From contig NZ_JACVOQ010000001.1 in NCBI RefSeq assembly GCF_018882325.1, positions 248,001 to 312,000 on the forward strand: a stretch of DNA of 64,000 nt, given 5' to 3'. Shown piece by piece: positions 7,800 to 25,390 of this stretch; position 1 is the first letter of the stretch, and every line of letters begins with the position of its first letter. A program made the translations under genes and the position numbers. The stretch is from Polynucleobacter sp. 78F-HAINBA. GTDB lineage: Bacteria > Pseudomonadota > Gammaproteobacteria > Burkholderiales > Burkholderiaceae. The notes under the pieces were generated by a model, which searched no databases, was not told the origin of the DNA, and worked only from the letters and a program-made list of their open reading frames with translations.

Positions 7800-7931
7800 T
7801 GTGCGTTAACACATAACCTGCAACTATAGTCTCAATAATATCAATAGGTTAGCAAATGCCCTGCCCCATATGTTGCAAGTAAGCTACCCATAAACTGCAT
7901 TAATCACTATAAAAAACACCATATGTTGCAA
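7800..7931. repeat. Left end of the Tn7-like element: terminus and four TnsB-like sites
   Basis: The terminus TGTGCGTTAACA starts at 7800. Sites: CATAACCTGCAA 7812-7823, CATATGTTGCAA 7867-7878, CATAAACTGCAT 7889-7900, CATATGTTGCAA 7920-7931. All have the same orientation, with uneven spacing of 55, 22 and 31 bases. The tniQ stop is only 39 bases further in. Confidence 0.8.
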
Positions 7932-7969
7932 GTTTCAGATTTGGGCCAAAAAAAATCTGCCTCTTGGTT

Positions 7970-8934: not shown

Positions 8935-9678
8935 CTAACTTTTTGCCGGATTTTTCTTTCGCATAGACTCCCCTTTAATATCAATTCGATATGACCCGCT
9001 AACAAGTCTATCGAGAATCGCATCAGCTACAGTAGGATTTCCTCCGCTTAGATAGTCATGCCATCTTTCAACTGGCATTTGACTGGTAATGAGGGTTGAG
9101 CCTCTGCCTGTACGCTGCTCAATGACTTCTAGTAAATCGCTTCGATTGATTGGGCTCAATGTGGAAATACCCAGATCATCCAGTATTAGTAAGTCTACTT
9201 TTGCTAATTGAGCTAGCTTTTGCCGAAAGGTGCCATCTGCATGTGACATTCCAAACTCTTCTAGCAAGAGCGAGAGTCTTTGAAAAATCACACTTTTGCC
9301 TTGTCTGCACATTTGATTTCCGAGTGCGCAAGCAATCCAGGTCTTACCTCCGCCAGTGGGGCCAGTAATAATCAGGTTAGCTCCTTGCTCAATCCAAGCA
9401 CCCATGGCAAGCGAGGCAATCAGGCCTTTATCCAAACCGCGATTCGTGCGATAGTCCATATTTTCTAGGCAAGCGTTCTCGCGCAGCTTAGCCTTTGCTA
9501 GCAATCGTTTGAGTCGCCGAGCTTCTCGGTGGGTATGCTCGTGATCGACCAGCAAGCCAATACGTTCCTCAAATGCTAGATCTTGGCTTGTAGGATTTTG
9601 TAACTGCTCCTCCAGCCCCTGGGCAATGCCCAAAAGCTTCATTTCATGGAGTTTGCGGAAGGTTTCTTGTAATAGCAT
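8935..9678 (-). CDS. istB: IS21-family transposition helper ATPase IstB
   Basis: A 247-residue AAA+ ATPase. The Walker A motif GPTGGGKTW is near residue 105 and Walker B LLILDDLG near 167; the sensor-like LITSQMPVERWH and RLVSGSYRIDIKGESMRKK are typical of IstB. IstB oligomerises on target DNA and activates the IstA transposase. It follows istA by 43 bases on the same strand. The motif residues are intact, so the protein should be functional. Confidence 0.95.
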   Translation of the reverse strand: MLLQETFRKLHEMKLLGIAQGLEEQLQNPTSQDLAFEERIGLLVDHEHTHREARRLKRLLAKAKLRENACLENMDYRTNRGLDKGLIASLAMGAWIEQGANLIITGPTGGGKTWIACALGNQMCRQGKSVIFQRLSLLLEEFGMSHADGTFRQKLAQLAKVDLLILDDLGISTLSPINRSDLLEVIEQRTGRGSTLITSQMPVERWHDYLSGGNPTVADAILDRLVSGSYRIDIKGESMRKKNPAKS

Positions 9679-9721
9679 GTTGTAACCCCTTTTAAAAATT
9701 TCTCAGTTGATGGCGCCTGCT

Positions 9722-11227: not shown

Positions 11228-11444
11228 ACAAATTCTCCAATTGGGCATGTATTCAAACCAATGTAATTATGAAAACCCGTTAAGGGCTTGGGCGAGTATT
11301 GGCCAAATGCCGTCGCTGGTGGCGCGTAATAGCGCACACCACCCCAATCAAATGAAAGGTATTGACAGATAAAGAAGTGCGAGAGAAAATAATCCTGAAG
11401 TTGATGGACAATATTTGACTTCATGAAGTTCTCCAGCATTGCCT

Positions 11445-11474
11445 AAACCCCAAAGTTCGCGCTTTGGGGTTTTT
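11445..11474 (+). terminator. Rho-independent terminator-like hairpin
   Basis: The arms AAACCCCAAAG (11445-11455) and CTTTGGGGTTT (11462-11472) pair perfectly around a six-base loop and are followed by T residues on the plus strand. It lies between istA and the small regulator gene. On the minus strand it would end the regulator transcript with a weaker T-run. Confidence 0.6.
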
Positions 11475-11496
11475 CATTTGGCGCTTGGCATAGTAC

Positions 11497-11754
11497 TTAT
11501 GTCATGCGATCCTCCTGCATAGCGTTTCTGGTTTTAGCGATGGATGTTCGAGGCTTAAATACGTAGCGCCCCGGCCAAAGCGCTTGGGGGGTGCTGCCCA
11601 ACAAAAGGGCAATATGCGTGGCGACAGTGTGTGCTGTGATCTGGCCACCAATGACCCTATGAACGACTTGAGGAGAAATTCCTAATTCCTTTGCAATATC
11701 CGTCTGCCTCTTACCTAAGAGGCGCAAGCGGTAGGCAATTTCAAGAGCATCCAT
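11497..11754 (-). CDS. Ner/Nlp-like small helix-turn-helix regulator
   Basis: The 85-residue protein is little more than a DNA-binding domain: AYRLRLLGKRQTDIAKELGISPQVVHRVIGGQITAHTVATHIA, then the PQALWPGRY segment seen in Ner/SfsB-type proteins, then a basic tail. Phage Ner proteins repress divergent promoters. Here the gene is divergent from an Xre regulator with an 87-base shared control region, so mutual regulation of the cargo is plausible. It is the first cargo gene beyond istA. Confidence 0.7.
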   Translation of the reverse strand: MDALEIAYRLRLLGKRQTDIAKELGISPQVVHRVIGGQITAHTVATHIALLLGSTPQALWPGRYVFKPRTSIAKTRNAMQEDRMT

Positions 11755-11841
11755 GATTTATAGGTGATTTTTCATCATTTATGGGTTAATATTTGCTTTA
11801 AATATACATTTATTTTCTCTATTGAGACAATTTTAAATCTA

Positions 11842-12510
11842 ATGAATAAAGAAAATCAAGACTTTTCGATGCCATCGCAATTAGCATTGGATGGCTTTGC
11901 TGGCCGCATAGCGCAGACTATTGTCCATTCAGGCCTAAATCAAACAGAATTTGCGGGCAAGCTAGGCGTTTCTCCTGGGTTCTTAAGTGATGTCGCCCGG
12001 GGAAATAAAAGGCCGGGAACGGAGTTTTTGTTTTCTTTGCGTAGCGTCTTTGGTATTTCGATCGACTGGTTGCTTACTGGCTTAGGCACTCGAACAGGGA
12101 CAAGTCCGATTGATCTGCAGCTATTTAAAACCATTCAACTCCAAATTGCCCTTGTGCAAGCGGCCATTGAGTGCAATAACCCCTATGCAAAAGGCTTGCT
12201 CAACTTGCTACGCAATGAAAGCATCACCGACCTGAGTAATGATGATGCGCACTATAAGGACCTTCTGAACTCATTGGATACTGACGATGCCCATCTCGAT
12301 TTGGCTTTGGGGCTTTATAACGGCTGTCTTGGCAACGCTGATACTGGCGCACGTTATAAGGATCTGCTCGAATCGGTCATTGCCTATTTTGAAACCAAAC
12401 AGCCCCTAGATAAATTATCAGCACTAATGCGCGCGCATCAGGGTGGAGCAGTCCAAATCAATTTGAATCACAATTCACGCAATGCGGGTCGCGACTTTCA
12501 CGAAAAGTAA
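11842..12510 (+). CDS. Xre-family transcriptional regulator with C-terminal RNAGRD tag
   Basis: The start is placed at ATG 11842, because the upstream open frame is AT-rich control region. The 222-residue protein has an N-terminal helix-turn-helix (IVHSGLNQTEFAGKLGVSPGFLSDVARGNKRP, residues about 24-60) followed by FGISIDWLLTG, as in phage-type repressors. A helical middle region follows (residues about 85-190). The tail reads INLNHNSRNAGRDFHEK. The same RNAGRD motif opens the next gene product. The pair is separated by 52 bases and probably co-transcribed. A regulatory or sensing role toward the membrane protein is an inference from this pairing. Confidence 0.75.
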   Translation: MNKENQDFSMPSQLALDGFAGRIAQTIVHSGLNQTEFAGKLGVSPGFLSDVARGNKRPGTEFLFSLRSVFGISIDWLLTGLGTRTGTSPIDLQLFKTIQLQIALVQAAIECNNPYAKGLLNLLRNESITDLSNDDAHYKDLLNSLDTDDAHLDLALGLYNGCLGNADTGARYKDLLESVIAYFETKQPLDKLSALMRAHQGGAVQINLNHNSRNAGRDFHEK

Positions 12511-12562
12511 TTTTCCTCAGCACTCTTTTCAAATCTTCTAACCAACCCGAAAGGATTGCAGC

Positions 12563-13126
12563 ATGTCACAAAACGAAGAATCAGTTGATATTAGTCAGCT
12601 CAATTTAGGGCAAGCCAATCGCAATGCAGGTCGCGATTACTATGAAATGCTCATTCCAGGATCAATCAAGCTGGTGCTAGCTACGCAGTCTCGTGAGCGT
12701 TTAAATGAGATGGCACAAGACAATAACTATCTTTTTAAATATCGATTTGGCTTTGAAGCAACCACACCCGTGCGCAAGCAAGTAATTGACATGCTCACAA
12801 GATATGATTTGAGTGATAAAGAAATCCGCATCCTCAAGCGCTCTGGGCAGCTAGTCATTAATCGCACAAAAGCCATATTGAAAAAACCTTCTCGCTGGAT
12901 CACCATCTTTGGCTGGGCCTATGTTGTCTTTATTGGGTTAGTTGTATTTGCGAGACTATACGCACTGACACAAAATCAAGAGCTAGAAACCGCAGAGCAC
13001 ATCTTGCAGCTCATTTTGACTTATGTCATTTTCTCAATTGTGCTTTGGGTTGTACTTAGCCTATTTATTTTGCCCGGCCGAATCCTAAAACAATCTGGAG
13101 CTGATCGGGAAGATTTACCTCTCTAG
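12563..13126 (+). CDS. Two-helix membrane protein with N-terminal RNAGRD tag, unknown function
   Basis: The 187-residue protein starts with a polar stretch (ISQLNLGQANRNAGRDYYEM) that repeats the motif at the end of the upstream regulator. A soluble charged domain follows (residues about 35-110). Two membrane helices come next (WITIFGWAYVVFIGLVVFARLY and LILTYVIFSIVLWVVLSLFIL), with a short cytoplasmic tail. AAAGGA precedes the ATG at good distance. The shared motif suggests the two proteins touch, or once formed one reading unit. The arrangement resembles a regulator plus membrane effector, but no known family was recognised. Confidence 0.65.
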   Translation: MSQNEESVDISQLNLGQANRNAGRDYYEMLIPGSIKLVLATQSRERLNEMAQDNNYLFKYRFGFEATTPVRKQVIDMLTRYDLSDKEIRILKRSGQLVINRTKAILKKPSRWITIFGWAYVVFIGLVVFARLYALTQNQELETAEHILQLILTYVIFSIVLWVVLSLFILPGRILKQSGADREDLPL

Positions 13127-13226
13127 CGGGTATTTCGCGGCATGAGAGATTTTCTGTAATAGCGGTCAAGAGTCGTTCGAGCAGAAAATATCAAGAGCAC
13201 TTGTTTATGTTTTTATGGCGCTCATC

Positions 13227-13262
13227 AAACAATTGCATCATAGGGATGCAATTGTTTTCTTG
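13227..13262 (+). terminator. Terminator-like hairpin after the membrane protein gene
   Basis: The 13-base arms AAACAATTGCATC and GATGCAATTGTTT pair perfectly around the loop ATAGG and are followed by TCTTG. It lies 100 bases past the stop at 13126, and probably separates the regulator/membrane pair from the nadB unit. Confidence 0.6.
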
Positions 13263-13462
13263 AAGTCATTAGCGATGCGCCTCTTCCTAGATTTCAGTCA
13301 TGATGCTTGCTTGAACTCGTGCAAACTCCGCTGCCCCATGTTCAAGGGATTGACTTGAATATAAAAATATTAAATTTATATTTTTCAATGATGAAAGTTA
13401 TCTTTTTATAAAAAAGTTTCTTTAAAAACTCATAAACAAGGGTAATTACTGATGAATCTATA

Positions 13463-13473
13463 GGGGGGGGGGG
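13463..13473. repeat. Run of eleven G residues upstream of nadB
   Basis: Eleven consecutive G residues occupy 13463-13473, ten bases before the ATG of a short open frame coupled to nadB. Poly-G runs of this length are slippage-prone. Here the run also supplies the purine-rich sequence in the ribosome binding position. Confidence 0.8.
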
Positions 13474-13482
13474 TGGACCATA

Positions 13483-13611
13483 ATGCAACATGCAGTGCAG
13501 CAAGAGCAAGGCAGGCTTTGTTTTAATGGGATGCAAATATCTCCGGGCCTGTATTTTCTGGGGCAACTTGACTTAGCCCTGCCAAACGAAACAACGGAGG
13601 CATTAGATTGA
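13483..13611 (+). CDS. Short leader-like open frame coupled to nadB
   Basis: A 42-codon frame begins at ATG 13483, just behind the G run, and ends in TGA 13609-13611. That stop overlaps the TTG start of nadB (13608), so the two would be translationally coupled. The product (MQHAVQQEQGRLCFNGMQIS and following) has no recognisable domain. It may be a leader peptide, a small protein or the remains of a longer gene. Support is position and spacing only. Confidence 0.3.
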   Translation: MQHAVQQEQGRLCFNGMQISPGLYFLGQLDLALPNETTEALD

Positions 13612-15146
13612 AATTTGACATCCTCATAATTGGTGAGGGACTCGCCGCCCTTTCTCTGATTTTGCATTTGCCAGGCAATTTAAAAATTGGTGTTATTTCT
13701 AGAAATAAATTTTCAGAATCTTCGAGCTTTTATGCGCAAGGCGGAATCTCAGCAGTATTCTCGACGGAAGACAATCTGGACAAGCACGTTCAAGATACGC
13801 TGATTGCCGGCGACGGAATTTGCGATGAAGTGGTAGTTAAGCAAATTATTGCAGATGGCCCATCGGCACTGCAATGGTTAATCGATGCTGGAATACCATT
13901 TACTAAGGAGGGTGGATTAATTCACCTAACCCGCGAAGGCGGTCACAGCGAAAGGCGAGTTGCGCACGTTGATGATATGACTGGCCGCGCAATCATGCAA
14001 AACCTCGTTCAAAAGGTTAGCATACTACCTAATATCGCATGGCTAAGGCAGCATGAGGTTTTGGAATTAATCACGGATGGTGAGGCAGTCTCCGGGGTTA
14101 TTACTCAAAGCTTAATTGATGGGGAAGTCTCAATTTTTTACTCCACCAAAATTGTGCTTGCAACAGGTGGAATAACGGGCCTTTATCCATATGCCACAAA
14201 TCCGAATGCCGGCAAGGGAGAGGCAATTGCAATAGCTTGGAGGGCTGGAGCTACTATAGAGAACCTTGAATTTATTCAATTTCATCCGACGGCATTTCTT
14301 ATGGATGGCAAGGTTGTCAGCCTGATTACCGAGGCAGTCAGGGGTGAAGGGGGTTATTTATACAACTCGCAGAATATTAGATTTATGGAGCAATATTCGC
14401 CACAAAAAGAGTTGGCTCCGCGAGACATTGTCTCGCGCGCTATTTACTCTGAGATGAAAATTCATAATGCCCCCAATGTATTTTTGGATATTTCTCATAA
14501 AGGGCCTCAATTTGTTGAACAACACTTTCCCAACCTCACAAAGCTAACTAACGCCTATGGGGTCGATCTCTCCACTTCGAAGGTTCCCGTTTCTCCAGCG
14601 GCGCACTATACCTGCGGGGGTATTGCTGCAGATGTGGCTGGACGCACTTCCGTTAAGGGCTTATATGCGATTGGTGAGGTTGCAAATTCTGGATTGCACG
14701 GAGCCAATCGACTAGCAAGCAACTCCTTGCTGGAATGTGTCGTGATGGGACGAGAGTGCGCTAAATCCATCGAATCATCTGAGGGTGGACGAAGTAATAA
14801 ACCGACCCCAGCTATACCAAGTCAGATTAATGCGCCATTAAGCGAATTCATTATTGATGAGCTAAGAAGCCTATTGTGGGCAAGTGCGGGTATTGTTCGC
14901 AATTCAAATGGAATGGCCTCGGGTGTAGACAAGCTTAAAGAAATTGAGATGCGACCTGCGAAATCACAGCCCTATGGTCAAGCATTGCGTAATCGCAATA
15001 CATTTGATGCTGCGAGCCTGATTATGCAAAGCGCAATTTCGCGCAACGAATCTAGGGGCGGGCACTTTAATGAAGATTTTCCAAGTCAATCCCACCCCAA
15101 TAAGACATCGATTGACGGCGTGAATAAATCCTACTATCAAGGCTAA
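13608..15146 (+). CDS. nadB: L-aspartate oxidase
   Basis: The 512-residue flavoenzyme would oxidise L-aspartate to iminoaspartate, the first step of NAD synthesis, which NadA then uses. It has an N-terminal FAD-binding motif (DILIIGEGLAALSL), the SSSFYAQGGIS loop, ENLEFIQFHPTAF, LAPRDIVSRAI, the active-site segment VSPAAHYTCGGIAAD, and GLHGANRLASNSLLECVVMG. The C-terminal helical domain ends with the SRGGHFNEDFP signature. TTG 13608 is the start because GGAGG lies seven bases upstream. It is followed four bases later by a TSUP transporter. Neither nadA nor nadC is present. Its place inside an IS21-type element suggests a transferred extra copy. Confidence 0.9.
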   Translation: MKFDILIIGEGLAALSLILHLPGNLKIGVISRNKFSESSSFYAQGGISAVFSTEDNLDKHVQDTLIAGDGICDEVVVKQIIADGPSALQWLIDAGIPFTKEGGLIHLTREGGHSERRVAHVDDMTGRAIMQNLVQKVSILPNIAWLRQHEVLELITDGEAVSGVITQSLIDGEVSIFYSTKIVLATGGITGLYPYATNPNAGKGEAIAIAWRAGATIENLEFIQFHPTAFLMDGKVVSLITEAVRGEGGYLYNSQNIRFMEQYSPQKELAPRDIVSRAIYSEMKIHNAPNVFLDISHKGPQFVEQHFPNLTKLTNAYGVDLSTSKVPVSPAAHYTCGGIAADVAGRTSVKGLYAIGEVANSGLHGANRLASNSLLECVVMGRECAKSIESSEGGRSNKPTPAIPSQINAPLSEFIIDELRSLLWASAGIVRNSNGMASGVDKLKEIEMRPAKSQPYGQALRNRNTFDAASLIMQSAISRNESRGGHFNEDFPSQSHPNKTSIDGVNKSYYQG

Positions 15147-15150
15147 TCAG

Positions 15151-15930
15151 ATGATAATTTTTATTCTTGGCGGAACTGTTGCGGGCTTATTGGCGGGTTT
15201 GTTTGGGATTGGAGGCGGGGCCTTGGTGATCCCTGTATTAATTGGCGTTTATAAGGCTGCCGATATGAGTTCAACCGACTCTATCCGTCTTGCATTTGGC
15301 ACCTCTCTAGCGATTATGGCCTTTACGGGGCTATCATCATTTTTAAGCCAGCTAAAGGCTGGCAATGTAGATTTAGGGTGGTTCAAAAAACTCTATCTTG
15401 CCTCTGGGATTGGTGCATTCATTGGGGCTTTGATTGCCACGCAGATTCCTGGGGTATGGTTAACAATCGCGCTTACGGCAATGCTCTTTTATTTTGGAAT
15501 AAAGCTTCTGGGGTTGCTGTCTGGCAACATGGAAGGCTCACCGCTTTTTGCACGTTTTTATGTTGTTGCCGGATTCTTTTCCGGGGCAACTTACTCGTTA
15601 GCAGGCCTGGGTGGCGCTTCAGTGATGACGTTTTACTTAATGAAGGTGGGTTTACCATTGCGCAAAGCCATAGGTACTGCTACAGGTGTTATTTTGCCAA
15701 TTTCTTTGGGGGCTGTGATGGGATTTGGCATCACCTCGGGAATGCCGCATGATTGGCGCTGGGGTTATATTGATCTATACGCTTTATTGTTAATGAGCTT
15801 ATGCTCAATTCCCGCCTCTAAAATAGGGGTGAAATTGGCTGGACTCATTTCAACCACCTACCTGAGAAAAGCATTTGGCTTATTGATGGTTGGGCTGGCG
15901 ATTAAAACAGCAGTGGTCAGTCTTGTGTAG
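15151..15930 (+). CDS. TSUP (TauE/SafE) family membrane transporter
   Basis: A 259-residue protein of about eight hydrophobic helices. It has the TSUP start (LGGTVAGLLAGLFGIGGGALVIPVL), a central FSGATYSLAGLGGASVMTFYL repeat of the same glycine-rich pattern, and a basic GVKLAGLISTTYLRKAFG loop before the last helix. TSUP proteins export sulfite, sulfonates or organic acids; the substrate cannot be told from sequence. The four-base gap to nadB implies one transcript, so a link to an amino or dicarboxylic acid is conceivable but unproven. Confidence 0.8.
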   Translation: MIIFILGGTVAGLLAGLFGIGGGALVIPVLIGVYKAADMSSTDSIRLAFGTSLAIMAFTGLSSFLSQLKAGNVDLGWFKKLYLASGIGAFIGALIATQIPGVWLTIALTAMLFYFGIKLLGLLSGNMEGSPLFARFYVVAGFFSGATYSLAGLGGASVMTFYLMKVGLPLRKAIGTATGVILPISLGAVMGFGITSGMPHDWRWGYIDLYALLLMSLCSIPASKIGVKLAGLISTTYLRKAFGLLMVGLAIKTAVVSLV

Positions 15931-15987
15931 CCTCATAGACCTGCTCTATGGCGATCTTTGTAGTGATATTAAATATTTAAGGTTTAG

Positions 15988-16767
15988 ATGGAAGCAATTA
16001 GCATTCAAACGTGGGAGCAGTTTATTGGACTTATTTCACAGTTTGACGGGTGGGTCTTTCGAGGTCAAGAAGATGCAAATTGGTCGCTAGATTCTTCTTT
16101 ATCTAGGTATCTAGCCCAATACATTCCCGACGCAAGGGAGTGGCCGATTCGAGAAGAGCGGGCCCTGCGTATCTTTAGGCGCAAGGCTCATAATTTTCTA
16201 GATGATCCCACTGTGCTGGATGATGATTTGCGTTGTCTAGCCTTAATGCAGCACCATGGGGCCCGCACTCGAATGCTTGATTTTACCAAGTCGCCCTTTG
16301 TGGCGGCATTTTTTGCGCTCTGTGATGCCAAAAATGATTGCGCTGTTTTTGCATTGGATACTCCAAAACTCTGGAGAAGGTCCCCAATGCAAGATCCTGA
16401 GCTAACAAGATCCACCATTGATCCAAGGGCTAAGGGCAATTTTGCCAAATATTTTTTACCTAATGCCCATGAATTGCTATGGGTTGGCGAGCCTAGGCAA
16501 ATGGATCGAAGGCTAGTAGCCCAGTCGGGTACTTTTGTGGTGCCAGGGGTATTAAATAAGACTCTTGACCAAATTATTGACAACTATCAAGCGGACCAAA
16601 GTTTGATTAAGAAAATTATTCTCTCGCAGTCCATGCGCTTTGAAGCTATGCAGGCGCTCTATCGTATGAATATTACCCATTCAACCCTATTCCCTGACTT
16701 AGATGGTCTTGCGCGATCGATGGCTTATGAGCTAGAAATGACATGGGTGGGCTATAAGAGCGATTAA
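15988..16767 (+). CDS. FRG-domain protein
   Basis: The 259-residue protein starts with the FRG core: a W-x-F-R-G-Q motif (DGWVFRGQEDANWSLDSSL, residues about 20-38), then LALMQHHGARTRMLDFTKSP, where the H-x-G and R-x-LDFT residues are the conserved set. FRG domains occur in solitary proteins and in defence or stress loci; the activity is unknown. The rest (VFALDTPKLW, LLWVGEPRQMDRRLVAQSG) fits the usual one-domain length. It lies 57 bases after the transporter gene but with its own start region. Its position among regulators in a mobile element makes a protective role possible. Confidence 0.75.
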   Translation: MEAISIQTWEQFIGLISQFDGWVFRGQEDANWSLDSSLSRYLAQYIPDAREWPIREERALRIFRRKAHNFLDDPTVLDDDLRCLALMQHHGARTRMLDFTKSPFVAAFFALCDAKNDCAVFALDTPKLWRRSPMQDPELTRSTIDPRAKGNFAKYFLPNAHELLWVGEPRQMDRRLVAQSGTFVVPGVLNKTLDQIIDNYQADQSLIKKIILSQSMRFEAMQALYRMNITHSTLFPDLDGLARSMAYELEMTWVGYKSD

Positions 16768-17070
16768 GGCTGGTTCTTAGTCAGCAGAGTCGTTGATTGA
16801 TCCTTCACAAATATTGGTAACATCACCCAAAATGATGTCTTGTTGAAAATTAAGAGTTAATCTTTTGGGGTATCCGCAATCTGTGATTGACTTCAACTAG
16901 AATAATTTAGGCTGGGGGAGTTTGATTCTTCTTGTGAGTTGCTTAATAGCCAATCAAAATTTCAATAGGGATAATTTATCGACACTCTATGTGGCGGGCT
17001 AATACAGTAACTGCGCCATGCGTCAAACCGAATCAAAATTAGACACTGTTTTTTTCATGGAGGGGGCAAT
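16768..17070. other. Spacer between the FRG gene and the last cargo gene
   Basis: These 303 bases contain one arm of an inverted repeat (16869-16890) and probably the promoter of the following gene. Open frames here are short and unconvincing. Confidence 0.5.
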
Positions 17071-17495
17071 ATGGATTGGAGTACGCTCTTTGGGGCTTTT
17101 GGAGTTGGCGCAATTATCAAAACCATACTTGACACAATACTATCTTCTAAAAAAGATAGGTCAGCCCTCCAATACCAAGAAAAGCGAGAGGCTTATCTTG
17201 GGTTATTGGATGCCCTGCATATAGCGGCGATCAGCCCAAGTGACGAAAACAGTAAGACCTTTGCGCTTTGGCAAACTAGGGTATCAATTTTTGGGTCAGA
17301 AGAAGCTAGTAAAGCTGTGCAAGGAATAATTGATACAAATGATGGGCCGCGTGAAATCCGCCACATCCATTTCGACAATCTTTTAAGAGCCATCAAAAAT
17401 GATTTATCAGTCTAACCTTTTAGGCTGTTTAAACATTACGCTGACCGACTTCTGATGGGAATTTAGTCAAAATCAATCACAGATTACGGATAACC
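16869..17495. repeat. Inverted repeat pair around the 114-residue gene
   Basis: GGTATCCGCAATCTGTGATTGA (16869-16890) is repeated in inverted orientation at 17473-17495 with one substitution and one inserted base. The arms enclose a 580-base segment with a single gene. This could be a small mobile cassette or a pair of regulatory sites. Confidence 0.6.
17071..17415 (+). CDS. Small membrane-anchored protein of unknown function
   Basis: The 114-residue protein has a short N-terminal hydrophobic helix (LFGAFGVGAIIKTILDTIL) and a soluble helical remainder with KDRSALQYQEKREAYLGLLDAL and a DNLLRAIKNDL end. GGAGGGGG lies just before the ATG, a very strong ribosome binding site. It is the only gene between two inverted repeat arms and the last cargo gene before the right IS21 end. 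The layout (anchor helix plus a short helical domain) recurs in proteins of unknown function near defence genes, but no family is named. Confidence 0.55.
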   Translation: MDWSTLFGAFGVGAIIKTILDTILSSKKDRSALQYQEKREAYLGLLDALHIAAISPSDENSKTFALWQTRVSIFGSEEASKAVQGIIDTNDGPREIRHIHFDNLLRAIKNDLSV

Positions 17496-17538
17496 ATCTT
17501 TTGCAATAAATGCATCGTTTATTGTGGCGAGTCCCACC

Positions 17539-17617
17539 GGAATTACTGGACTACTTTCCAATGGAATGACTGCCAGCTTTGAATTGGAATGAGTGGCAAC
17601 ATTCACTGTAATACGCA
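17539..17617. repeat. Right terminal repeat array of the IS21-family element
   Basis: GGAAT copies start at 17539, 17563 and 17586, with a degenerate tip copy (TGTAATACGCA) ending at 17617. Spacing counted from the tip (22, 23, 24) is the mirror of the left end. Confidence 0.8.
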
Positions 17618-17624
17618 ATCAAGG
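17618..17624. repeat. Target-site duplication, right copy (ATCAAGG)
   Basis: This is identical to 8790-8796 and directly abuts the right IS tip at 17617. Confidence 0.85.
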
Positions 17625-18606
17625 CTATCGGGCTGATTTCAAAAAGAGTATCGTTAAGTTCCCCCATCTCGTCTATGCCAAACTTAATGATTTCATCGGA
17701 GATAAAATTGCAATTCGCATCAAACCAAAGACTTTTGTTTAGCACTCTATAAAGACCCTTAAACCTTGTCCAAAAGCTTTTATCGGAATATATATGCCGA
17801 TTGTTGTCACTACGCAAAAAAGTTCTGAGGCCATTTGGCCAATCTGAAAAAATATTACATGCGGTATCTATTACATTTAGATACGCATAATTGGAATCAG
17901 AACTTGCGGAGTATTTCCTATTCAAGGTGAATGAGTTAAATGCGAACAAAATATCCAAAAATTGACCTAAAGGAATTTTTTCAAAATCACTCAATGGAAA
18001 CCCCGATTTCTGCTTTAGCGTAGAGATTGGAATGCGAGCAAGCTTTAAATGAATAATCTGCATTAGATCAACATAGCTTGATGGAGCCTTCCTCTGAGAC
18101 ACACCAGTAAGATCTGCTCCACACCTGCAAGTTGCTACCCCAAGCCTGTTCCAACTTAATGTGTTTTTACACTTAGCACATTTTGTTGTCGCGATAATTC
18201 CGTGTCGTGGGCATACTAGGGCTAATGATAGATCCCAAAACGCGCTAATATATCCATTACTACCTATGCATAATGGGCAAACCCTAGATTTAATGGATAA
18301 CCTTCTTGCATTATTTGCGCTAGAAAGATCGTGGCCAAGTAATTGAATTCTTGGATGTAATGATTGAGAAGTTTCTATGTACTTATACCGGTCCAAACTC
18401 TCTTGAGAAAACCCCAAAATCCCTGCAAGCTTTTTAACGGGTAAGTGCTTTGAATTAAATTGCTTTACAGATAGCTTTGCTAAAGGGGCAACTTCTGCTA
18501 AAGAGGTGTATCCATTTGCCTCCGAAATTCGCAGTAAATATCCAAATAAACTCTCATCCTCGAAAGGGGTCGGAGTGCGAACGAGCAATGGGAGTTGCTC
18601 ACTCAT
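17618..18606 (-). pseudogene. tniQ: tniQ, N-terminal part, cut off by the IS21-family element
   Basis: TniQ/TnsD proteins choose the insertion site and recruit TnsC. The start is ATG 18606, one base after the tnsC stop (TGAAATG). The N-terminus reads PLLVRTPTPFEDESLFGYLLRISEANGY, the TniQ signature. A zinc-binding region follows near residues 118-178 (CPLCIGSNG, VCPRHG, KCAKC, CRCG). After codon 329 the frame runs into the IS end and stops at 17551 after about 20 foreign residues. The remaining 273 residues are encoded at 7970-8796. The truncated product keeps the zinc region but loses the probable target-recognition half. Confidence 0.8.
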
Positions 18607-18607
18607 T

Positions 18608-19612
18608 TCAAAATTTACCCGAAACCAGCTGATCATCCGAGCTAAAAGGGATTTTCCTGCGTGGCAAAACGTTTGGTAATTTTGCGCAGCCAATATTTAA
18701 TGCAATGCCAATTTGCCCCTCAATATGTCTAGGCTGATAATTTTTGTCAAATGGGTTCGCCGTATCAGAAGGGGAATTGGGATCCCAAATTGATTCCTGA
18801 TACGCCTTTCGCAACCCCTCTAGAGTTATTACTTTTTGCCCACCTTCTATTGCGCCCCACACTGCATATTTTAAAAATTTACTTAAATATCCAATTAAAC
18901 CACCGGTTGCACGAAAAACCCTAAATCCCATATCCTCCTCATCAAGCCTAGGAATATCAAAATATCGGCCAATCGACCCCTGGAATGCACCCAGTATTCC
19001 AAGAAATTCCTCGCGATGCTCATCAATTCTCCAATCAAATCTTGGCATTAGCATGGGCGTAAAAAATCTTCCAGCTAGCTGTTCGTTTTGCTCCAATACT
19101 GCAAGGCCGCTAGGCAATCCAGCAACAACCAAACCACATCTATTCTCGTCAACCAAAGTTTTAAGCCAGTCAGCAACATGGTGCGCAACAACTCCATTTC
19201 GCCTGCTGCAAAAATGCTGGAACTCATCTATGACAACCATATTTGTTTTGGAATTTCGCATTAAGACTTTTAGCCGATTTGTTTTGGCAATTTCAGTCCC
19301 AGACTCATAACGAGGATCCCCCATCTTTTCAAGCATCAGCTCAGCTAAACCCTTTACAGTAGGATTGGAGGGTGTGACAACCTTAAGTACGGGGGTATAC
19401 AAACCATCTTCCTTTCTATATTCAAGGTGATTTCTACAAAACTCATCCAATACCGTACTTTTCCCAGTCCTTGATTCACCTACAATCGCAACACATGCTG
19501 ATTCTGGACTGTTAATTGTGTTGTGCATACAGCGCTCGATTCGAGCGCCTGCCTCAATAAAGGCCGAGTGCGGGACCAATGTACTCTCCACAATATATTG
19601 AGGCTTAATCAT
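18608..19612 (-). CDS. tnsC: Tn7-like transposition ATPase TnsC (TniB-like)
   Basis: A 334-residue AAA+ ATPase. Walker A is GESRTGKS (residues 45-52) and Walker B VVIDEFQHF (126-134), followed by the sensor region GLVVAGLPSGLAVLEQNEQLAGRFF. TnsC bridges the targeting protein TniQ and the TnsAB transposase. Its ATG overlaps the tnsB stop (ATGA) and its stop lies one base before the tniQ start, so the operon is translationally coupled. The length and the short C-terminus are nearer to TniB than to the 555-residue Tn7 TnsC. Confidence 0.85.
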   Translation of the reverse strand: MIKPQYIVESTLVPHSAFIEAGARIERCMHNTINSPESACVAIVGESRTGKSTVLDEFCRNHLEYRKEDGLYTPVLKVVTPSNPTVKGLAELMLEKMGDPRYESGTEIAKTNRLKVLMRNSKTNMVVIDEFQHFCSRRNGVVAHHVADWLKTLVDENRCGLVVAGLPSGLAVLEQNEQLAGRFFTPMLMPRFDWRIDEHREEFLGILGAFQGSIGRYFDIPRLDEEDMGFRVFRATGGLIGYLSKFLKYAVWGAIEGGQKVITLEGLRKAYQESIWDPNSPSDTANPFDKNYQPRHIEGQIGIALNIGCAKLPNVLPRRKIPFSSDDQLVSGKF

Positions 19613-21627
19613 AGATTCTCCTTGTTCTCAGAGTGAACCTGATTCAGTTGTGAAGTTCGCTCGCGAACAATTGGCTCAAACTTTCTCTGTTTGCGATCTA
19701 CATTAGAACTTTTAAAAGAAGATTTTCCGGGTATTGCCTCGGAAATATCCGACTCCCCTGGAATAAATTTTGCAGGTACATCCAGTACAAGAGGCGCATC
19801 CTCTTGCCTCAATATGCCGTCACCCTGGTATCGCGCGACTTTTGCTCTTTGTTTTTTCCTGCCTGATTTTGATTCGCCTTCAATAATTTCGGCAATAACT
19901 AGCTTTGCCTCCAAGTAAGATGAATCATCATTTTTACCAAAATTTCTCCAAGCATATTTCTTACACATCCTATGTTGAAATGTCGACAAGCCATTTGCAT
20001 ATTCCCCTTGCAGAGCTGGTACGATGAACATCTGCTTCTTATCAGGAGATAGAACCACAATAGATCCTAAATTGGACTCATCCACCCTGATATCCACCTT
20101 CAACTTATCCCCAAGACGTCTTCTGAGCCCAGTTAACTCGCTTGAGTTATAAAGCAACCCGCTAAATTCGATACCTTTATGGGTTAAAACACGTTTTTCA
20201 GTGTGGCCAAGGAGCGCGTCGAGTTGAGTAATATTGTCGGGAAGCAATATGTCGGATGAATCTATTGAATTCACCCAAACCAAGGAGGGACTCGCCCCTA
20301 AAGTTCGATGAGTTTCCTGATGGTAAACATCTGCAACCCATTTGTTTATAACTAACTTTAAAGTTTCAAACCGCACAACCGCATGCTTGACGGGGTCATA
20401 ATCATCTTTCTCAAAGATATTGCTAAAAGTGGTGCCAGGATTACCATGAGCGACCTGAGAATTTAATGTCCCTAAAAATCGCTCAATCTTTCCTTTAAAC
20501 CAAGGCGTCTTTCTGGCCGAATAATGAATTTCGATTCCGAGTGCATAACATGCATTTTCTAAGCTGGCACTATGAAATTCGACCCCATTATCGACAACCA
20601 ACTCTCGCATAACACCATGACTATGCCAATCATTCAAAATCTCTGGAAACTCACTCCTTAATCCCACCTTTGGCAAAATTGCTGACTTTAAACACTGCGC
20701 TACAGTACGAAAGCTCGGCGGCTCAAATCCAATAACAATACCCAATATACTTCGCGAATAATCGTCAAGACACACCGTTAGCCATGGGCGACCTCGCGGA
20801 AATCCATTGCCGTCGACAACCATTAGGTCAAGTTGAGTATGATCAATTTCAGCCCTTTCTAGCGGAGCCTGAGTAATGCGATGTGATAGTACGCTTCGAT
20901 ACTTTTTATTAGCCGCCTCCCTTCCATCTCTTGCTAATGATCTATCAAAGGCTGGAATAGTATCTATTAATCTACGAATTAATCTTAATTCCGGGATCGG
21001 CAACACCATTGAATCCGGCCGAAGCTTATTCTCTCTTGCAATTTGAGCTCGAATTAAATCCAGCACTTGCTGAACATTTTTTTGTTCACGGGTCATGTAG
21101 AACTTATCTATCCCCTCTTTTGCAAGTTGAATTACTTCACCGGGATATCTTGGAGACCTATTTCCTCGCTTCTTTTCATTGACCCCCAGAGACCTTATAT
21201 CTGATCCTGAGGCTATATATTTTTTCTTCCAGCGACACACGGTTATCCAGTGTGGCTTTTCAGATTCACCCAATTGACACGCCACATCCTCAATAACGGG
21301 TCTCATAGCAGTTTCGGAGGCCGGGATACTCAGCACACTAACTACGTATGCTCTTTTTCTCTTAAGGGCACACCATTCGCTCTCACTAAACTCATGCGCC
21401 AAAATTCTATTACTCACATCAACATCCGAACCAGATACCAGCCCATCCTCGAACCGCAGCTCCCCTAGAACATATAACTCTTGTAGTTTTTTTTCGGAAT
21501 ACTCCTTAAGCAAAAGGGTTTTACAGTCTTGCAACTGCCATATCTCGGAATTTATTTTAGATTTGAGGACGTATTTATAGGTCCCAATTTGAATGTTTGT
21601 ATTGACCCTAAATGATGAACAGCTCAC
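19609..21627 (-). CDS. tnsB: Tn7-like DDE transposase TnsB (TniA-like)
   Basis: The 672-residue transposase binds the end repeats and joins 3' ends to the target. It has N-terminal helix-turn-helix segments (about residues 60-150), an integrase core with catalytic D262 (AEIDHTQ), D346 (LVVDNGVEF) and E382 (KGKIERFLG), and a basic C-terminal tail for TnsC contact. The D346-E382 spacing of 35 residues is the classic D,D-35-E pattern. The start is GTG 21627, overlapping the tnsA stop in a GTGA arrangement. All catalytic residues are present, so the enzyme looks active. Confidence 0.9.
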   Translation of the reverse strand: MSCSSFRVNTNIQIGTYKYVLKSKINSEIWQLQDCKTLLLKEYSEKKLQELYVLGELRFEDGLVSGSDVDVSNRILAHEFSESEWCALKRKRAYVVSVLSIPASETAMRPVIEDVACQLGESEKPHWITVCRWKKKYIASGSDIRSLGVNEKKRGNRSPRYPGEVIQLAKEGIDKFYMTREQKNVQQVLDLIRAQIARENKLRPDSMVLPIPELRLIRRLIDTIPAFDRSLARDGREAANKKYRSVLSHRITQAPLERAEIDHTQLDLMVVDGNGFPRGRPWLTVCLDDYSRSILGIVIGFEPPSFRTVAQCLKSAILPKVGLRSEFPEILNDWHSHGVMRELVVDNGVEFHSASLENACYALGIEIHYSARKTPWFKGKIERFLGTLNSQVAHGNPGTTFSNIFEKDDYDPVKHAVVRFETLKLVINKWVADVYHQETHRTLGASPSLVWVNSIDSSDILLPDNITQLDALLGHTEKRVLTHKGIEFSGLLYNSSELTGLRRRLGDKLKVDIRVDESNLGSIVVLSPDKKQMFIVPALQGEYANGLSTFQHRMCKKYAWRNFGKNDDSSYLEAKLVIAEIIEGESKSGRKKQRAKVARYQGDGILRQEDAPLVLDVPAKFIPGESDISEAIPGKSSFKSSNVDRKQRKFEPIVRERTSQLNQVHSENKENL

Positions 21628-22310
21628 AGCGAAATACTCCCAATGCGTTCATCCCTAGAATCAGCCCATGTGAATAATGTTGACCCACACCATAACTTAA
21701 CTTGATCAACATGAACCACCCCCTCAAGGACCAACCGACACATAACATTTTTACTAGAGGGGCCAGCAATACCTCCTAATATCTCACTCCACAAAACACC
21801 CGCCGGTCTTGCTAAAAATAAACAACGGGCTTGCTCCCGCTCCTCTGGACTGATTTCACGCCTACCAAATTTGAGGATTGTGACTGCATTTTTCAGTCTT
21901 GGATCACTCCCCATATCGTCACTACTCACCGTCTTTAGAAAGTAGCCGTGAAACAATAACTCTTCGGACAACATATTCAAACCTTTAAGCCAATTCTTGC
22001 ATTCCAACTCTCGAGCTATTTTCCATAACTCTTTTTGGCCATTAATAACTACCAAAATATCTGGTCGCTCGATTTGTATTACCCCTTCGTATTCATAAAC
22101 AATCTCTAAAGGGCGCTCAGCAAAAGACTGGACCAAGGGATCGCAATCTAGCAATCGAAAAGCGCATAGGTGGGAAACGCTCTCCCACTGCATCATTCGA
22201 CCCATCTTCCAACTTGGAAACTTTCCAGTTGGCTTACTGTTAGACCTTTTAACTATCTCGGCTACCCTATCCTTACCTTGGTCTGGAAATCTAATTTGTC
22301 TTATTTTCAT
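21624..22310 (-). CDS. tnsA: Tn7-like endonuclease TnsA
   Basis: The 228-residue protein fits TnsA, the restriction-enzyme-like partner that cuts the 5' ends so the element leaves by cut-and-paste. The N-terminal catalytic domain shows E43 (QWESVSH), D84 in VIQIERPDILVV and E103-x-K105 in ELECKNW, the usual E-D-(E/Q)xK set. The family hallmark DCDPLVQSFAERPLEIVYEYEG lies between them. The C-terminal half is a winged-helix-like region that would contact TnsC. GAGGAATAA before ATG 22310 is a good ribosome binding site. A separate TnsA, rather than a TnsA-TnsB fusion, is the Tn7-type arrangement. Confidence 0.8.
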   Translation of the reverse strand: MKIRQIRFPDQGKDRVAEIVKRSNSKPTGKFPSWKMGRMMQWESVSHLCAFRLLDCDPLVQSFAERPLEIVYEYEGVIQIERPDILVVINGQKELWKIARELECKNWLKGLNMLSEELLFHGYFLKTVSSDDMGSDPRLKNAVTILKFGRREISPEEREQARCLFLARPAGVLWSEILGGIAGPSSKNVMCRLVLEGVVHVDQVKLWCGSTLFTWADSRDERIGSISL

Positions 22311-22331
22311 TTATTCCTCTTTAATATTGCC

Positions 22332-22343
22332 GGCAACACCTAA
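22332..22343 (-). promoter_or_regulatory. Conserved 12-base element before tnsA
   Basis: GGCAACACCTAA (plus strand) lies 21 bases upstream of the tnsA ATG and recurs at 23351-23362, 31 bases upstream of the first operon gene. Extending the match to GCnGGCAACACCTAA leaves a single difference. It is a candidate operator for self-regulation. Confidence 0.5.
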
Positions 22344-22349
22344 TTAAAT

Positions 22350-22369
22350 AAAAAAATTAGCGTCTAATT
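22350..22369 (-). terminator. Weak terminator-like hairpin at the end of the first operon gene
   Basis: On the minus strand AATTAG-ACG-CTAATT is followed by a T-run and overlaps the stop codon at 22357. The stem is short and AT-only at its base, so it may only reduce read-through into tnsA. Confidence 0.4.
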
Positions 22370-23319
22370 AACTTTGCCAAAATTGTCTTGGCTGTTACGT
22401 TCGTTTCTGATCCACCTAATGGCATATCTAATGCCGGTCTAACCACCTCAAAAACTCCATTTTTTAAGCTCAAAATCCCAACATGGGCTGGCAAGTTATC
22501 GATCCCATTTTTTTGATGGAAATTCTCAAATGCAATCCATTGAAAGTCAAAATAGGGCCTCTGCTTATCTAGCGTATTAATATTAATTTTTAACCTATTA
22601 TTTGATTTAATTTCTACTACCCCAATTTTTATCGGACTACACACATCTCCCTGTATCAATATGGCGGCGTCCACGTCGAATGCGCTCTGAGTAGAATCAT
22701 TCGGGCGAATCCGAAGATTTGGCATCACCTCAAATATTTCAGGATTGATAAAACCCGTCCAATTCTTGGGTGCTAAATTTAGAGCCATCAAAACTTGAGC
22801 CTCTGCACTTCTTTGAGCCTGAATTATATTTCCACGCTCCACTCTTGGCTTTGTGACTCCGATTCCTCTGGCTGTCTTTCCATCCAATACCTTTCTATAC
22901 GCTACCCAAGCAGCCCTCAATTCGTTTCGCTTGATTCTGCTATTGACCACCCTGCTTGCCAAATCTAAAAAAACTTCTTTTGGAGCTGCTCTTTCAATTT
23001 TTTCAAGGGTATCCAAATTCTCTGCACTAATCTTATTTGCAATCGAATCAAAAGTTGGCGCCTGAATTCCCCTATCACCCAACACCTTAAGCAGTTGAGG
23101 ATAGTACTTTCCCGCTCGGTAATAGCGCCATAGGTTACTTTCATGTATTGATAATTTTTTACTAATATCAACCAACCAGTCAGTGAAATTGCGATGGGTT
23201 TTATTCCAAATGTTGTTTTTTTCGACCTCCAAGATATAGGCCGCAACGGATGGCCACTCTCTAGCTTCATCCATGCTGAGCTCTAAAATCTGGTGAGTAT
23301 TGAGGCTTTGATTTTTCAT
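22357..23319 (-). CDS. DNA-binding/nuclease-like accessory protein of the Tn7-like element, unknown function
   Basis: ATG 23319 is chosen over an upstream GTG (23358) because GGAAAAG lies in the right place before it. The 320-residue protein has an N-terminal helical region with a probable helix-turn-helix (KKLSIHESNLWRYYRAGKYYPQLL, residues about 54-77). The C-terminal domain contains D215/D217 followed by VVEIKSNNRL (E236-x-K238), the spacing of PD-(D/E)xK-type nucleases. It is the first gene next to the crowded right end and precedes tnsA by 46 bases. The shared 12-base element before both genes suggests it controls the operon. Alternatives are a target-marking factor or a nuclease-derived regulator. 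It has no counterpart in Tn7 itself. Confidence 0.6.
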   Translation of the reverse strand: MKNQSLNTHQILELSMDEAREWPSVAAYILEVEKNNIWNKTHRNFTDWLVDISKKLSIHESNLWRYYRAGKYYPQLLKVLGDRGIQAPTFDSIANKISAENLDTLEKIERAAPKEVFLDLASRVVNSRIKRNELRAAWVAYRKVLDGKTARGIGVTKPRVERGNIIQAQRSAEAQVLMALNLAPKNWTGFINPEIFEVMPNLRIRPNDSTQSAFDVDAAILIQGDVCSPIKIGVVEIKSNNRLKININTLDKQRPYFDFQWIAFENFHQKNGIDNLPAHVGILSLKNGVFEVVRPALDMPLGGSETNVTAKTILAKLIRR

Positions 23320-23350
23320 ATTTACTTTTCCAATTTCTTTAAGTGTAGCA

Positions 23351-23362
23351 GGCAACACCTAA
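23351..23362 (-). promoter_or_regulatory. Conserved 12-base element before the accessory gene
   Basis: This is the second copy of GGCAACACCTAA (plus strand), paired with 22332-22343. Confidence 0.5.
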
Positions 23363-23467
23363 ATTGTCAAGGTGATATTTAATTCAATACTCAAGGCGTC
23401 ACTCACAAGAAGCTACATTGCTTGCGCAACAGAAAACCAAAAAAGCTCCTCCATTAATAACTTCGAG

Positions 23468-23534
23468 TTGCAATTTATGTGGTCAAAACATGCAGGTTAT
23501 GCGGTAAAACTTGCAAGTTATGCGTCAACGCACA
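23468..23534. repeat. Right end of the Tn7-like element: three packed TnsB-like sites and terminus
   Basis: Read on the minus strand the sites are CATAACTTGCAA (23511-23522), CATAACCTGCAT (23490-23501) and CATAAATTGCAA (23468-23479), 21 and 22 bases apart, followed outward by the terminus ending CGCACA at 23534. Dense packing at the tnsA-proximal end is the Tn7 pattern. Confidence 0.8.
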
Positions 23535-23656
23535 TCCCAACAAGGTCATCACTGGAGAATTTCGATCAAACTTGATCCTTATATACATATATTGATATAT
23601 AGAATCAATATTTAAGTATTTGTAGGAATAACATTAGCCCTAGACAATATGGGTCT

Positions 23657-25390
23657 ATGTACAAATATGACCACATTGACCAAACCCTTGTAGATCAACG
23701 GGTTACCCAGTTCCGAGACCAAGTTGAGCGACGCCTCAACGGCACGCTAGCCGAAGAAGAATTCCGCCCTCTTCGCCTGCAGAATGGTCTCTACCACCAG
23801 CGCCATGCTTATATGCTGCGCGTTGCCATTCCATATGGCTTGTTGAGTGCCAAGCAATTACGCACCCTCGCCTTTATTGCCGATAAATACGATCGCGGTT
23901 ATGGCCACTTTACGACCCGTCAAAACATTCAATTTAACTGGGTTGAGCTAGAACAGACACCTGACATCTTGGCAGAACTAGCCAAAGTCGAGATGCATGC
24001 CATCCAAACATCGGGGAACTGTGTTCGCAACATTACAAGCGATGCCTTTGCTGGTGTTGCCGCTGATGAATATATCGACCCAAGACCCATCTGCGAGTTA
24101 CTCCGTCAATGGTCAACCTTACATCCCGAGTTTGCTCATCTACCGCGAAAATTCAAGTTTGCAATTAATGGTGCAAAAGAAGATCGCACAGTTTTGCTTT
24201 GTCATGACGTCGGTATTGAGCTAAAGAAAAACCCAGAGATCAATAATGGAGAATTGACTGCAGACATCTATGCGGGTGGTGGCATGGGTCGCACACCGAT
24301 ACTGGGATCATTAATTAAGCAAGGCTTGCCTTGGCAAGCTCTACCAAGCTACTTAACTGCACTCCTACGTGTGTATAACCGCTTTGGTAGAAGAGATAAC
24401 TTATATAAAGCACGCATTAAGATTTTGGTGAAAGCCTTAGGTCCAGAAGAATTCGCACGCCAAGTAGAGGGAGAATGGGCTCAACTGCATAACGACACCA
24501 AGCAGAGTAAAGATAACTTCACACAAGCCGAGTGGGAACGCGTTGCTAAACACTTCACTAAGCCAAACTATAAAACCTTGCCGGCATTGAGCAATGCACA
24601 ATTACAGTCTCATGTGGAATCCAAACTAGAAGCCAATGAGAAGATTGCATTTACACGCTGGCTAGAGCGCAACATCAAACCCCATCAAGTACCCGGTTAT
24701 GCCTCAGTCATTCTGTCACTCAAACCCCATGGCACTGCTGCCCCTGGCGACGCTACTAGCGCGCAAATGAATGCCATTGCAGATTTAGCAGATCACTATA
24801 GTTTTGGTGAATTACGCGTCACCCATGAACAAAACTTAGTGCTAGCTGATGTTGAGCAAGCAGAGTTACTCAATTTGTGGCGCGCTGCTAAAAACTATAA
24901 CTTGGTATTACCTAATATTGGTTTACTCACAGACATCATTGCCTGCCCTGGTGGTGACTTCTGCTCACTAGCTAATGCCAAATCACTGCCGATTGCCAAA
25001 GCCATTCAAGAACGTTTTGATGATTTGGATTACTTGCACGATTTAGGCGATATCACTTTAAATATTTCTGGTTGCATTAACTCCTGCGGCCACCATCACG
25101 TCGGCAATATTGGCGTTCTGGGTGTCGATAAAGATGGTGAAGAGTGGTACCAAATCACCTTAGGTGGAGAGCAAGGCAATGATGCATCTATTGGCAAAGT
25201 CATTGGGCCTTCTTTCTATGCCAATGAGATTCCGGATGTGATGACTAGCCTTATTAATACCTATGTAGAGCAGATAACTGCAGATGAGCCTTTTATTGAG
25301 ACCTACCGCAGGCTTGGCGTAAACCCCTTTAAAGAGGCTGCTTATAAGAACGCTCAAAGCAAAGAAAAGCATAAAGAACCAGTAGCCTAG
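23657..25390 (+). CDS. cysI: Sulfite (nitrite/sulfite) reductase hemoprotein beta subunit
   Basis: The 577-residue enzyme reduces sulfite to sulfide with siroheme and a 4Fe-4S cluster in the cytoplasm. It has the duplicated ferrite-reductase halves (RLQNGLYHQRHAYMLRVAIPYGLL; ...GHFTTRQNIQFNW) and cluster ligands C430, C436, C473 and C477 in CPGGDFC and SGCINSCGHHH. It is a stand-alone type, without the flavoprotein subunit in the window. It opens the operon with the DUF934 protein and the siroheme methyltransferase. The Tn7-like right end stops 122 bases before it, in its promoter region. Confidence 0.9.
   Translation: MYKYDHIDQTLVDQRVTQFRDQVERRLNGTLAEEEFRPLRLQNGLYHQRHAYMLRVAIPYGLLSAKQLRTLAFIADKYDRGYGHFTTRQNIQFNWVELEQTPDILAELAKVEMHAIQTSGNCVRNITSDAFAGVAADEYIDPRPICELLRQWSTLHPEFAHLPRKFKFAINGAKEDRTVLLCHDVGIELKKNPEINNGELTADIYAGGGMGRTPILGSLIKQGLPWQALPSYLTALLRVYNRFGRRDNLYKARIKILVKALGPEEFARQVEGEWAQLHNDTKQSKDNFTQAEWERVAKHFTKPNYKTLPALSNAQLQSHVESKLEANEKIAFTRWLERNIKPHQVPGYASVILSLKPHGTAAPGDATSAQMNAIADLADHYSFGELRVTHEQNLVLADVEQAELLNLWRAAKNYNLVLPNIGLLTDIIACPGGDFCSLANAKSLPIAKAIQERFDDLDYLHDLGDITLNISGCINSCGHHHVGNIGVLGVDKDGEEWYQITLGGEQGNDASIGKVIGPSFYANEIPDVMTSLINTYVEQITADEPFIETYRRLGVNPFKEAAYKNAQSKEKHKEPVA

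Follow-up and report, generated by a model that had tools for sequence, protein, structure and literature searches.

The first gene of the transposition operon of a Tn7-like element in Polynucleobacter sp. 78F-HAINBA (here denoted acc) probably encodes an autoregulatory repressor of that operon, which would combine a KorB-like DNA-binding part with a nuclease-type scaffold and act at 14-bp dyads. In the 64,000-nucleotide stretch of this genome that we analyzed (the window), two such dyads flank acc, one overlapping the predicted acc promoter and the other preceding tnsA, and in related elements dyad and gene occur together.

The element spans ~15.7 kb between its ends (about 7800-23534). A minus-strand gene run from 23319 to 17551 starts with acc, as the initial annotation had it, followed by tnsA-, tnsB-, tnsC/tniB- and tniQ-like genes (Table 1); tnsA, tnsB, tnsC and tniQ/tnsD stand in one run, as in a Tn7-like transposon. 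The tnsA assignment runs via a protein of another acc-bearing locus (L043), which is 37% identical to the window protein and matches PF08722 (E 2.1e-7). The window protein itself has no Pfam match at E <= 1 and a weak NCBIfam match (E 0.0089), far below the cut-off. The real start of the tniQ/tnsD-like gene probably lies within the listed frame. Each end carries three matches to the TnsB-type site pattern CATA[AT]NNTGCAN[GC]T, with one stray match at 29807, and the two ends, in inverted orientation to each other, have termini reading TGTGCGTT(A/G)AC(A/G)CATAAC; TnsB presumably binds at these repeated end sites. There is no clean 5-bp target-site duplication: CATCC precedes the left TGT, TCCCA lies to the right of ACA, and CATCC overlaps that end by two bases (7790-7800, 23534-23545).

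Table 1. Features of the Tn7-like element and of acc (window positions unless a locus is named)
Feature	Position	Strand	Basis or remark
Left transposon end, TGTGCGTTAACACATAACC...	7800..7933	+	3 matches to TnsB-type site pattern
tniQ/tnsD-like gene	17551..18693	-	Pfam search
tnsC/tniB-like ATPase, 334 aa	18608..19612	-	Pfam search
tnsB-like transposase, 672 aa	19609..21627	-	Pfam search
tnsA-like, 228 aa	21624..22310	-	likeness to L043 homologue
Putative operator 2, TGTTGC-CG-GCAATA	22325..22338	-	acc-tnsA gap, 15-28 nt before tnsA start
acc, first gene of the transposition operon, 320 aa/codons	22357..23319	-	predicted DNA-binding N-terminus and MmcB-like PD-(D/E)xK C-terminus
acc residues 160-320, MmcB-like PD-(D/E)xK domain	22360..22842	-	profile comparison; D217, E236, K238 all kept
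acc residues 1-150, helical, ParB/KorB-type DNA-binding domain by fold comparison	22870..23319	-	weak model
Predicted acc promoter, TTGACA-17-TACACT, extended -10 (TG)	23342..23370	-	10/12 matches
Putative operator 1, TGTTGC-CT-GCTACA	23344..23357	-	in promoter spacer and on -10 box of acc promoter
Right transposon end, TGTGCGTTGACGCATAACTTGCAAG...	23466..23534	-	3 TnsB-type sites, 21-22 nt apart
TnsB-type sites near reductase gene	window 23466-23656; L006 4843-4878; L007 2224-2258; L046 742; L048 677		

Stretches of 9.5-13.5 kb by the same reductase gene in five related genomes (L044-L048) gave no alignment at E <= 1e-5 to window ~7777 to 23577, apart from window 23487-23535, to which L048 has a single short end-like match. 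TnsB-type sites occur just 5' of this sulfite/nitrite reductase-type gene (window 23657-25390) in five of eight loci (not in L044, L045 or L047), which suggests that attachment at this place is recurrent. In L048 (~620-2720) and L046 (~690-2770), short stretches next to the reductase gene that contain a TnsB-type site are possibly non-autonomous Tn7-like passengers or remnants; that of L048 holds trypsin-like and RES-domain genes, and we noticed no tns gene in it. Inside the window element we observed an IS21-type istA/istB pair near the left end (8935-11248) and apparent cargo, namely L-aspartate oxidase (nadB) and a TauE-type transporter (13608-15930). The genes for an FRG-domain protein (15988-16767) and for an Xre-HTH protein, the latter with a small neighbor without Pfam match (11764-13126), are possibly defense cargo. 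A small ORF (17071-17415) has an aegerolysin match slightly below the curated cut-off (20.6 vs 22 bits). Just beyond the left end lies a RES toxin / Xre-MbcA-ParS antitoxin pair (6683-7727).

Translation of acc probably starts at the ATG at 23319; an alternative GTG at 23358 adjoins the upstream dyad. An element shared by the regions before acc and tnsA had been reported in the initial annotation, and the 12-mer GGCAACACCTAA is indeed present there in exact copies at 22332-22343 and 23351-23362, both on the minus strand, but its ungapped extension covers 14/15 bases (TTAGGTGTTGCC[T/G]GC) or 15/17, not 15/16. These 12 bases are the longest word common to the 260 nt before acc and the gap before tnsA, a length reached by none of 100 mononucleotide shuffles (largest 10). 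No further copy with up to one mismatch occurs in the 64 kb (chance mean 0.34; 3/100 shuffles reach 2). Each copy overlaps one half of a dyad, and the two dyads combined read TGTTGC-NN-GCWAYA. The predicted acc promoter is the top-scoring promoter-like site within 22200-23660, a stretch holding four such sites against a shuffle mean of 3.9; at the second dyad, before tnsA, we saw no conserved -35 by eye. The pattern TGTTGCNNGCWAYA, derived from the two sites flanking acc, has four matches in the 2.05 Mb genome, these two among them.

In relatives the consensus dyad, also of 14 bp, is TTTAGC-NN-GCTAAA. The literal 12-mer, which was expected to recur in homologous elements, is not common to them, but an equivalent dyad is found in its place. 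In seven of nine other loci (L040, L041, L043, L006, L009, L064, L042) the two places share no exact word longer than chance would give, and L007 and L008 are borderline, a length of 9 being reached in 6 and 4 shuffles out of 100; in these nine loci the dyad was recognized by alignment and by a matrix, not as an exact repeat. The counts of dyads, dyad cores and promoters below refer to 14 non-redundant loci, L041, L008, L009, L071, L072 and L063 having been omitted as redundant. The 15-base matrix was trained without the element being scored, on seeds chosen by eye, and for the upstream analysis start codons were shifted inward in L043, L065, L006 and L067, judged by the look of the promoter. 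Aligned by eye, the upstream dyads include TTTAGC-CA-GCTAAA (L040), TTTAGC-GA-GCTAGA (L007), TTTCGC-CG-GCTAGA (L065), TCCCGC-CT-GCTAGA (L006) and TCTAGT-TA-ACTAGA (L062, L072); downstream dyads include TTTAGC-TA-GCTAAA (L007), TCTAGC-CA-GCTAGA (L066) and TATAGC-TG-GCTAAA (L040).

With the leave-one-out matrix, the top site downstream of acc starts 20 to 24 nt past its stop codon in 8/14 loci, exactly those eight that were found to have a transposase or recombinase gene behind acc on its strand. Ranked against every position of the locus (both strands), these sites stand at 477/127,972 (window), 14/32,972 (L006), 23/38,974 (L040), 2/10,504 (L043), 2/20,378 (L007), 13/21,786 (L064), 3/33,974 (L065) and 3/33,774 (L066). 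The top matrix site of L068 is also at +24, but its sequence forms no dyad; in L042, L067, L070, L062 and L061 the top downstream site is elsewhere, with low scores. Upstream, the top site is first or second of its locus in L040, L007, L065 and L066, ranks 14 to 49 in L006, L043, L064, L062 and L067, and is poor in L042, L070, L068 and L061. The two window dyads rank only 173 and 477 of 127,972 against the matrix of the other elements; the window half-sites have diverged.

The core of the dyad was also counted by itself. GCNNGC occurs within 50 nt after the acc stop in 9/14 loci (shuffle mean 0.88, largest 5; 0/2000 shuffles reach 9), compared with 21/159 other ORFs of the same loci. It is absent there from five (L067, L070, L062, L068, L061); among the six loci lacking the +20 to +24 dyad only L042 has it, further on. 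In the 70 nt upstream it is found in 6/14 (shuffle mean 1.42, largest 5) and absent from eight, among which L043 and L064 have a core shorter by one base. A TTGACA-16/18-TA promoter is present in these 70 nt in 5/14 loci (shuffle mean 0.04). The distance between dyad and acc is maintained although the enzyme encoded next differs (TnsA, a tyrosine recombinase or IstA), and the product of acc is therefore the likely binder.

Protein searches found relatives of acc in 5/200 related genomes, 3/399 of the order, 7/398 of the phylum and 5/74 of family f79, in overlapping sets in which the window's own genome is counted where it is a member (it lies outside f79). Homologues were also found at four loci of a genome-contig collection, including L008 and L009 of Polynucleobacter, and in 238/72,556 plasmid records, 235 of them from Enterococcus. 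There were none in 50,697 phage records, no relatives in viral contigs with the A1, Enterococcus, Geminocystis or L065 proteins as queries (33, 3, 54 and 2 candidate stretches), and no hit to A1 in a PDB sequence search. A tnsA-like gene follows acc on the same strand in the window and in L040, L041, L043 and L006; in L006 this gene is a 130-aa stub and tblastn detected no other tns gene. A tyrosine recombinase follows in L007, where the end of the contig truncates it, in L008 and, by likeness to L008, in L009. In L065, L066 and, by likeness to L066, L071, acc is followed by two or three genes of 196-821 aa and then by large tyrosine recombinases. L064 has an IS21-type istA-like gene behind acc, which may be a chance insertion; the window has an IS21 transposase of its own. 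In L042 a weak HTH_17 protein and a DUF5906 protein follow, and L070 ends right after acc. We found no recombinase gene directly behind acc in L067, L068 or the two Enterococcus and two cyanobacterial plasmids examined; the Geminocystis plasmid has one before acc. In the Enterococcus plasmids the homologue stands between a PemK/MazF gene (before) and fic (after).

Two side observations concern these loci. Arrays of the same TnsB-type sites lie before acc and a tyrosine recombinase in L007 (8440-8570), L008 (9799-9835) and L009 (9744-9835), where tblastn detected no tns gene, that is, Tn7-like ends stand beside a tyrosine recombinase. The distant homologue of E. faecalis plasmids (L061 7980-8918, L063 5980-6918) has in L061 lost the catalytic lysine, and a long inverted repeat lies 5' of the gene.

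Profile comparison supports the restriction-endonuclease-like core proposed for the C-terminus. Against 22 MmcB proteins (of 25 matches), the C-terminal profile of all rows scored prob 98.0, E 1.9e-13. Without the two cyanobacterial rows, which pass the PF06319 cut-off, it scored prob 96.4, E 1.2e-9, and with the seven window-type rows alone prob 95.7, E 1.1e-8, compared with E 0.053 to 0.91 for ten column-shuffled controls. By these profiles the C-terminus is a remote homologue of MmcB. The same profile gave nothing against TnsA, and PF06319 does not match the window protein by itself. Modeled alone (pLDDT 59.5), this part placed 3dnx, a solved MmcB relative, third in Foldseek, but at E 0.67 in a weak list with many unrelated proteins, and a structural aligner gave a best Z of 4.4. 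Most of the 20 aligner entries listed are restriction-type nucleases. Since no Foldseek match reached E <= 0.001, for this model or for the whole protein, and the C-terminal list holds many unrelated proteins, neither model alone proves a fold.

The predicted D...E-x-K motif is present in the window copy as D217...E236-x-K238, and its sequence makes nuclease activity in the window lineage possible. Across 15 homologues the aspartate is kept in 14, and all three residues occur together in six (P0001, L040, L007, L008, L062, L072), which form four groups by similarity. L006 shows a conservative change, D for E, and eight have lost the lysine, some also the glutamate or aspartate; the tnsA-linked L043 is among these eight. 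MmcB of Caulobacter (PF06319) is described in the accessible text of PMC9578287 as an SOS-regulated PD-(D/E)XK endonuclease. The acc domain resembles it by profile and through 3dnx in the weak fold list, but is fused to a DNA-binding region, has often lost catalytic residues and occurs in mobile-element operons.

For the N-terminus, a helix-turn-helix-like character had been suggested, and here it is a weak model that points to a DNA-binding domain of ParB/KorB type. AlphaFold with five sequences gave pLDDT 53.4 for the whole protein and 64-76 for residues 21-140; Foldseek found ParB chains at E 0.08 and up. When the N-terminal half was aligned to 848 chains, 1r71, the DNA-binding domain of KorB, came second (Z 6.4, rmsd 5.0 over 108 residues). 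The first 20 rows comprised 12 KorB/ParB/Spo0J/Noc chains and six of the Rubisco factor Raf1, one of which was first (Z 6.7), and ParB/KorB chains share their score range with designed or repeat helical proteins; with this aligner Z below 8, or below 13 for helical proteins, may reflect merely a common arrangement. An N-terminal profile compared with six KorB/ParB proteins was not significant (prob 0.8, E 0.07), PF08535 matched none of the acc homologues scanned, and the KorB family model had no hit in the window's own genome.

The comparison with KorB of RK2 extends to the operator, a likeness that we noted after the Foldseek list of ParB chains and before the aligner placed 1r71. According to the accessible text of PMC2680271, the KorB operator OB is TTTAGC(c/g)GCTAAA, and in RK2 the korA promoter has its -10 overlapped by an operator, that of KorA; the accessible part of PMC11790492 gives this -10 as TAAACT. 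The dyad consensus, the N-terminal fold in the weak model and the position of an RK2 operator (that of KorA) on a promoter -10 are alike, but most acc-family dyads carry one extra central base and the C-terminus of acc is MmcB-like, and there is no significant homology to KorB at the sequence level. As modeled, the protein also appears to leave no room for the N-terminal CTP-binding clamp domain of KorB/ParB, the KorB-aligning helical region starting within the first 20 residues of the weak model with no Pfam match. The evidence supports a product that works like KorB at its operator; it does not support calling it a KorB.

The regulatory cycle that we propose would run as follows. The N-terminal domain, assigned to the ParB/KorB type on weak fold evidence, would bind the dyad TTTAGC-NN-GCTAAA, probably as a dimer. 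Binding at the dyad on the -10 box of the acc promoter would limit transcription of the operon, and binding at the dyad before tnsA would either stop read-through into tnsABC-tniQ, as a roadblock, or repress a weak internal start. On arrival in a repressor-free cell, the element would then express transposase in a burst and subsequently shut itself down. The MmcB-like domain may serve as a scaffold or as a dimerization or sensing part, catalysis being not generally needed. A stronger form of this proposal, to which we give a small chance, is that acc encodes a sensor-repressor common to mobile elements, whose MmcB-like domain recognizes damaged or incoming (single-stranded, branched) DNA, with binding or cutting freeing the dyads so that Tn7-like and tyrosine-recombinase genes fire. 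If true, a nuclease fold would have been turned into a mobility switch that responds when DNA enters or breaks.

The initial annotation left two roles open, an operon regulator on a nuclease-like fold and a nuclease acting in the choice of target or the defense of cargo. The first is now well supported, the repeat being part of a dyad tied to acc in related elements and the C-terminus being MmcB-like. The second fares poorly: besides the loss of the lysine in more than half of the homologues, PADLOC assigned none of five homologues to a family, and the sites lie at the operon promoter and before tnsA. An active accessory nuclease, which its N-terminal domain would guide to DNA and which would cut alongside TnsA in donor processing or target choice, is unlikely in our judgment. 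The intact catalytic residues of the window copy, the endonuclease described for MmcB and the placement of acc before tnsA in all four genomes with closely related TnsB would suit it; TnsA is already present, however, only 6/15 homologues keep D-E-K complete, and no acc homologue was found in the stretches covered of 12 other Tn7-like loci.

That acc is instead a cargo or defense nuclease standing before tnsA by chance seems very unlikely. Its nuclease-type fold, the other apparent cargo of the element and the PemK/MazF and fic genes around the Enterococcus homologues could be read this way, but PADLOC found nothing for five homologues, acc is first in the operon, and the dyads are common to operons of unrelated recombinases. 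Nearly as improbable is a moving dyad-gene-dyad cassette, with the two sites as recombination borders that place acc before different recombinases. The downstream site does stay 20-24 nt from the acc stop although the next gene differs, and the two window sites share TTAGGTGTTGCC; the upstream site, however, lies within the promoter, the usual position of an operator, and we noticed neither a free cassette nor an empty counterpart. We retain the autoregulatory repressor as the preferred reading, for which both putative operators are predicted at single-base resolution.

Among Tn7-like elements, the window TnsB is 49-53% identical to those of the three other acc-bearing genomes just mentioned (G064, G078, G196). 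No acc homologue was found at E <= 10 in stretches of 6.2-9 kb around 12 further TnsB genes, taken from the weaker matches (<=39% identity). Six of these 12 distant loci have an Xre-type HTH gene beside tnsA or the presumed tnsA, four on the same strand and two divergent, and the best reading is that acc occupies a position taken by Xre-type genes in some other Tn7-like elements. In the texts that a literature search covered, we found no report of an MmcB-like or ParB-like gene in a transposon and nothing linking Polynucleobacter and Tn7. The accessible text of a survey of 6,549 Tn7-like elements (PMC8649781) uses neither 'upstream of tnsA' nor 'adjacent to tnsA', the former is also missing from that of PMC10293859, and the accessible parts of the GInt and Tsy papers name no acc-like gene.

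Regulators borne by Tn7-like elements are known from CRISPR-associated ones. As far as the accessible text of the two reports goes, RtaC/RtbC are Xre regulators of I-F3 CASTs, with zygotic induction (PMC11406308), and CvkR is a MerR-type regulator of V-K CASTs whose palindromic binding sites lie at promoters of genes within the same element (PMC9938897). The acc product would resemble them as a regulator carried by a Tn7-like element, but it belongs to another protein family and would be a third, unrelated solution beside the MerR and Xre types of those reports. Its pairing of a KorB-like DNA binder with an MmcB-like nuclease fold recurs before TnsA and before tyrosine recombinases. In the latter respect the family recalls the GInt islands and Tsy transposons, which are multi-gene tyrosine-recombinase elements: the acc homologues of L065, L066 and L071 likewise head gene runs with large tyrosine recombinases.
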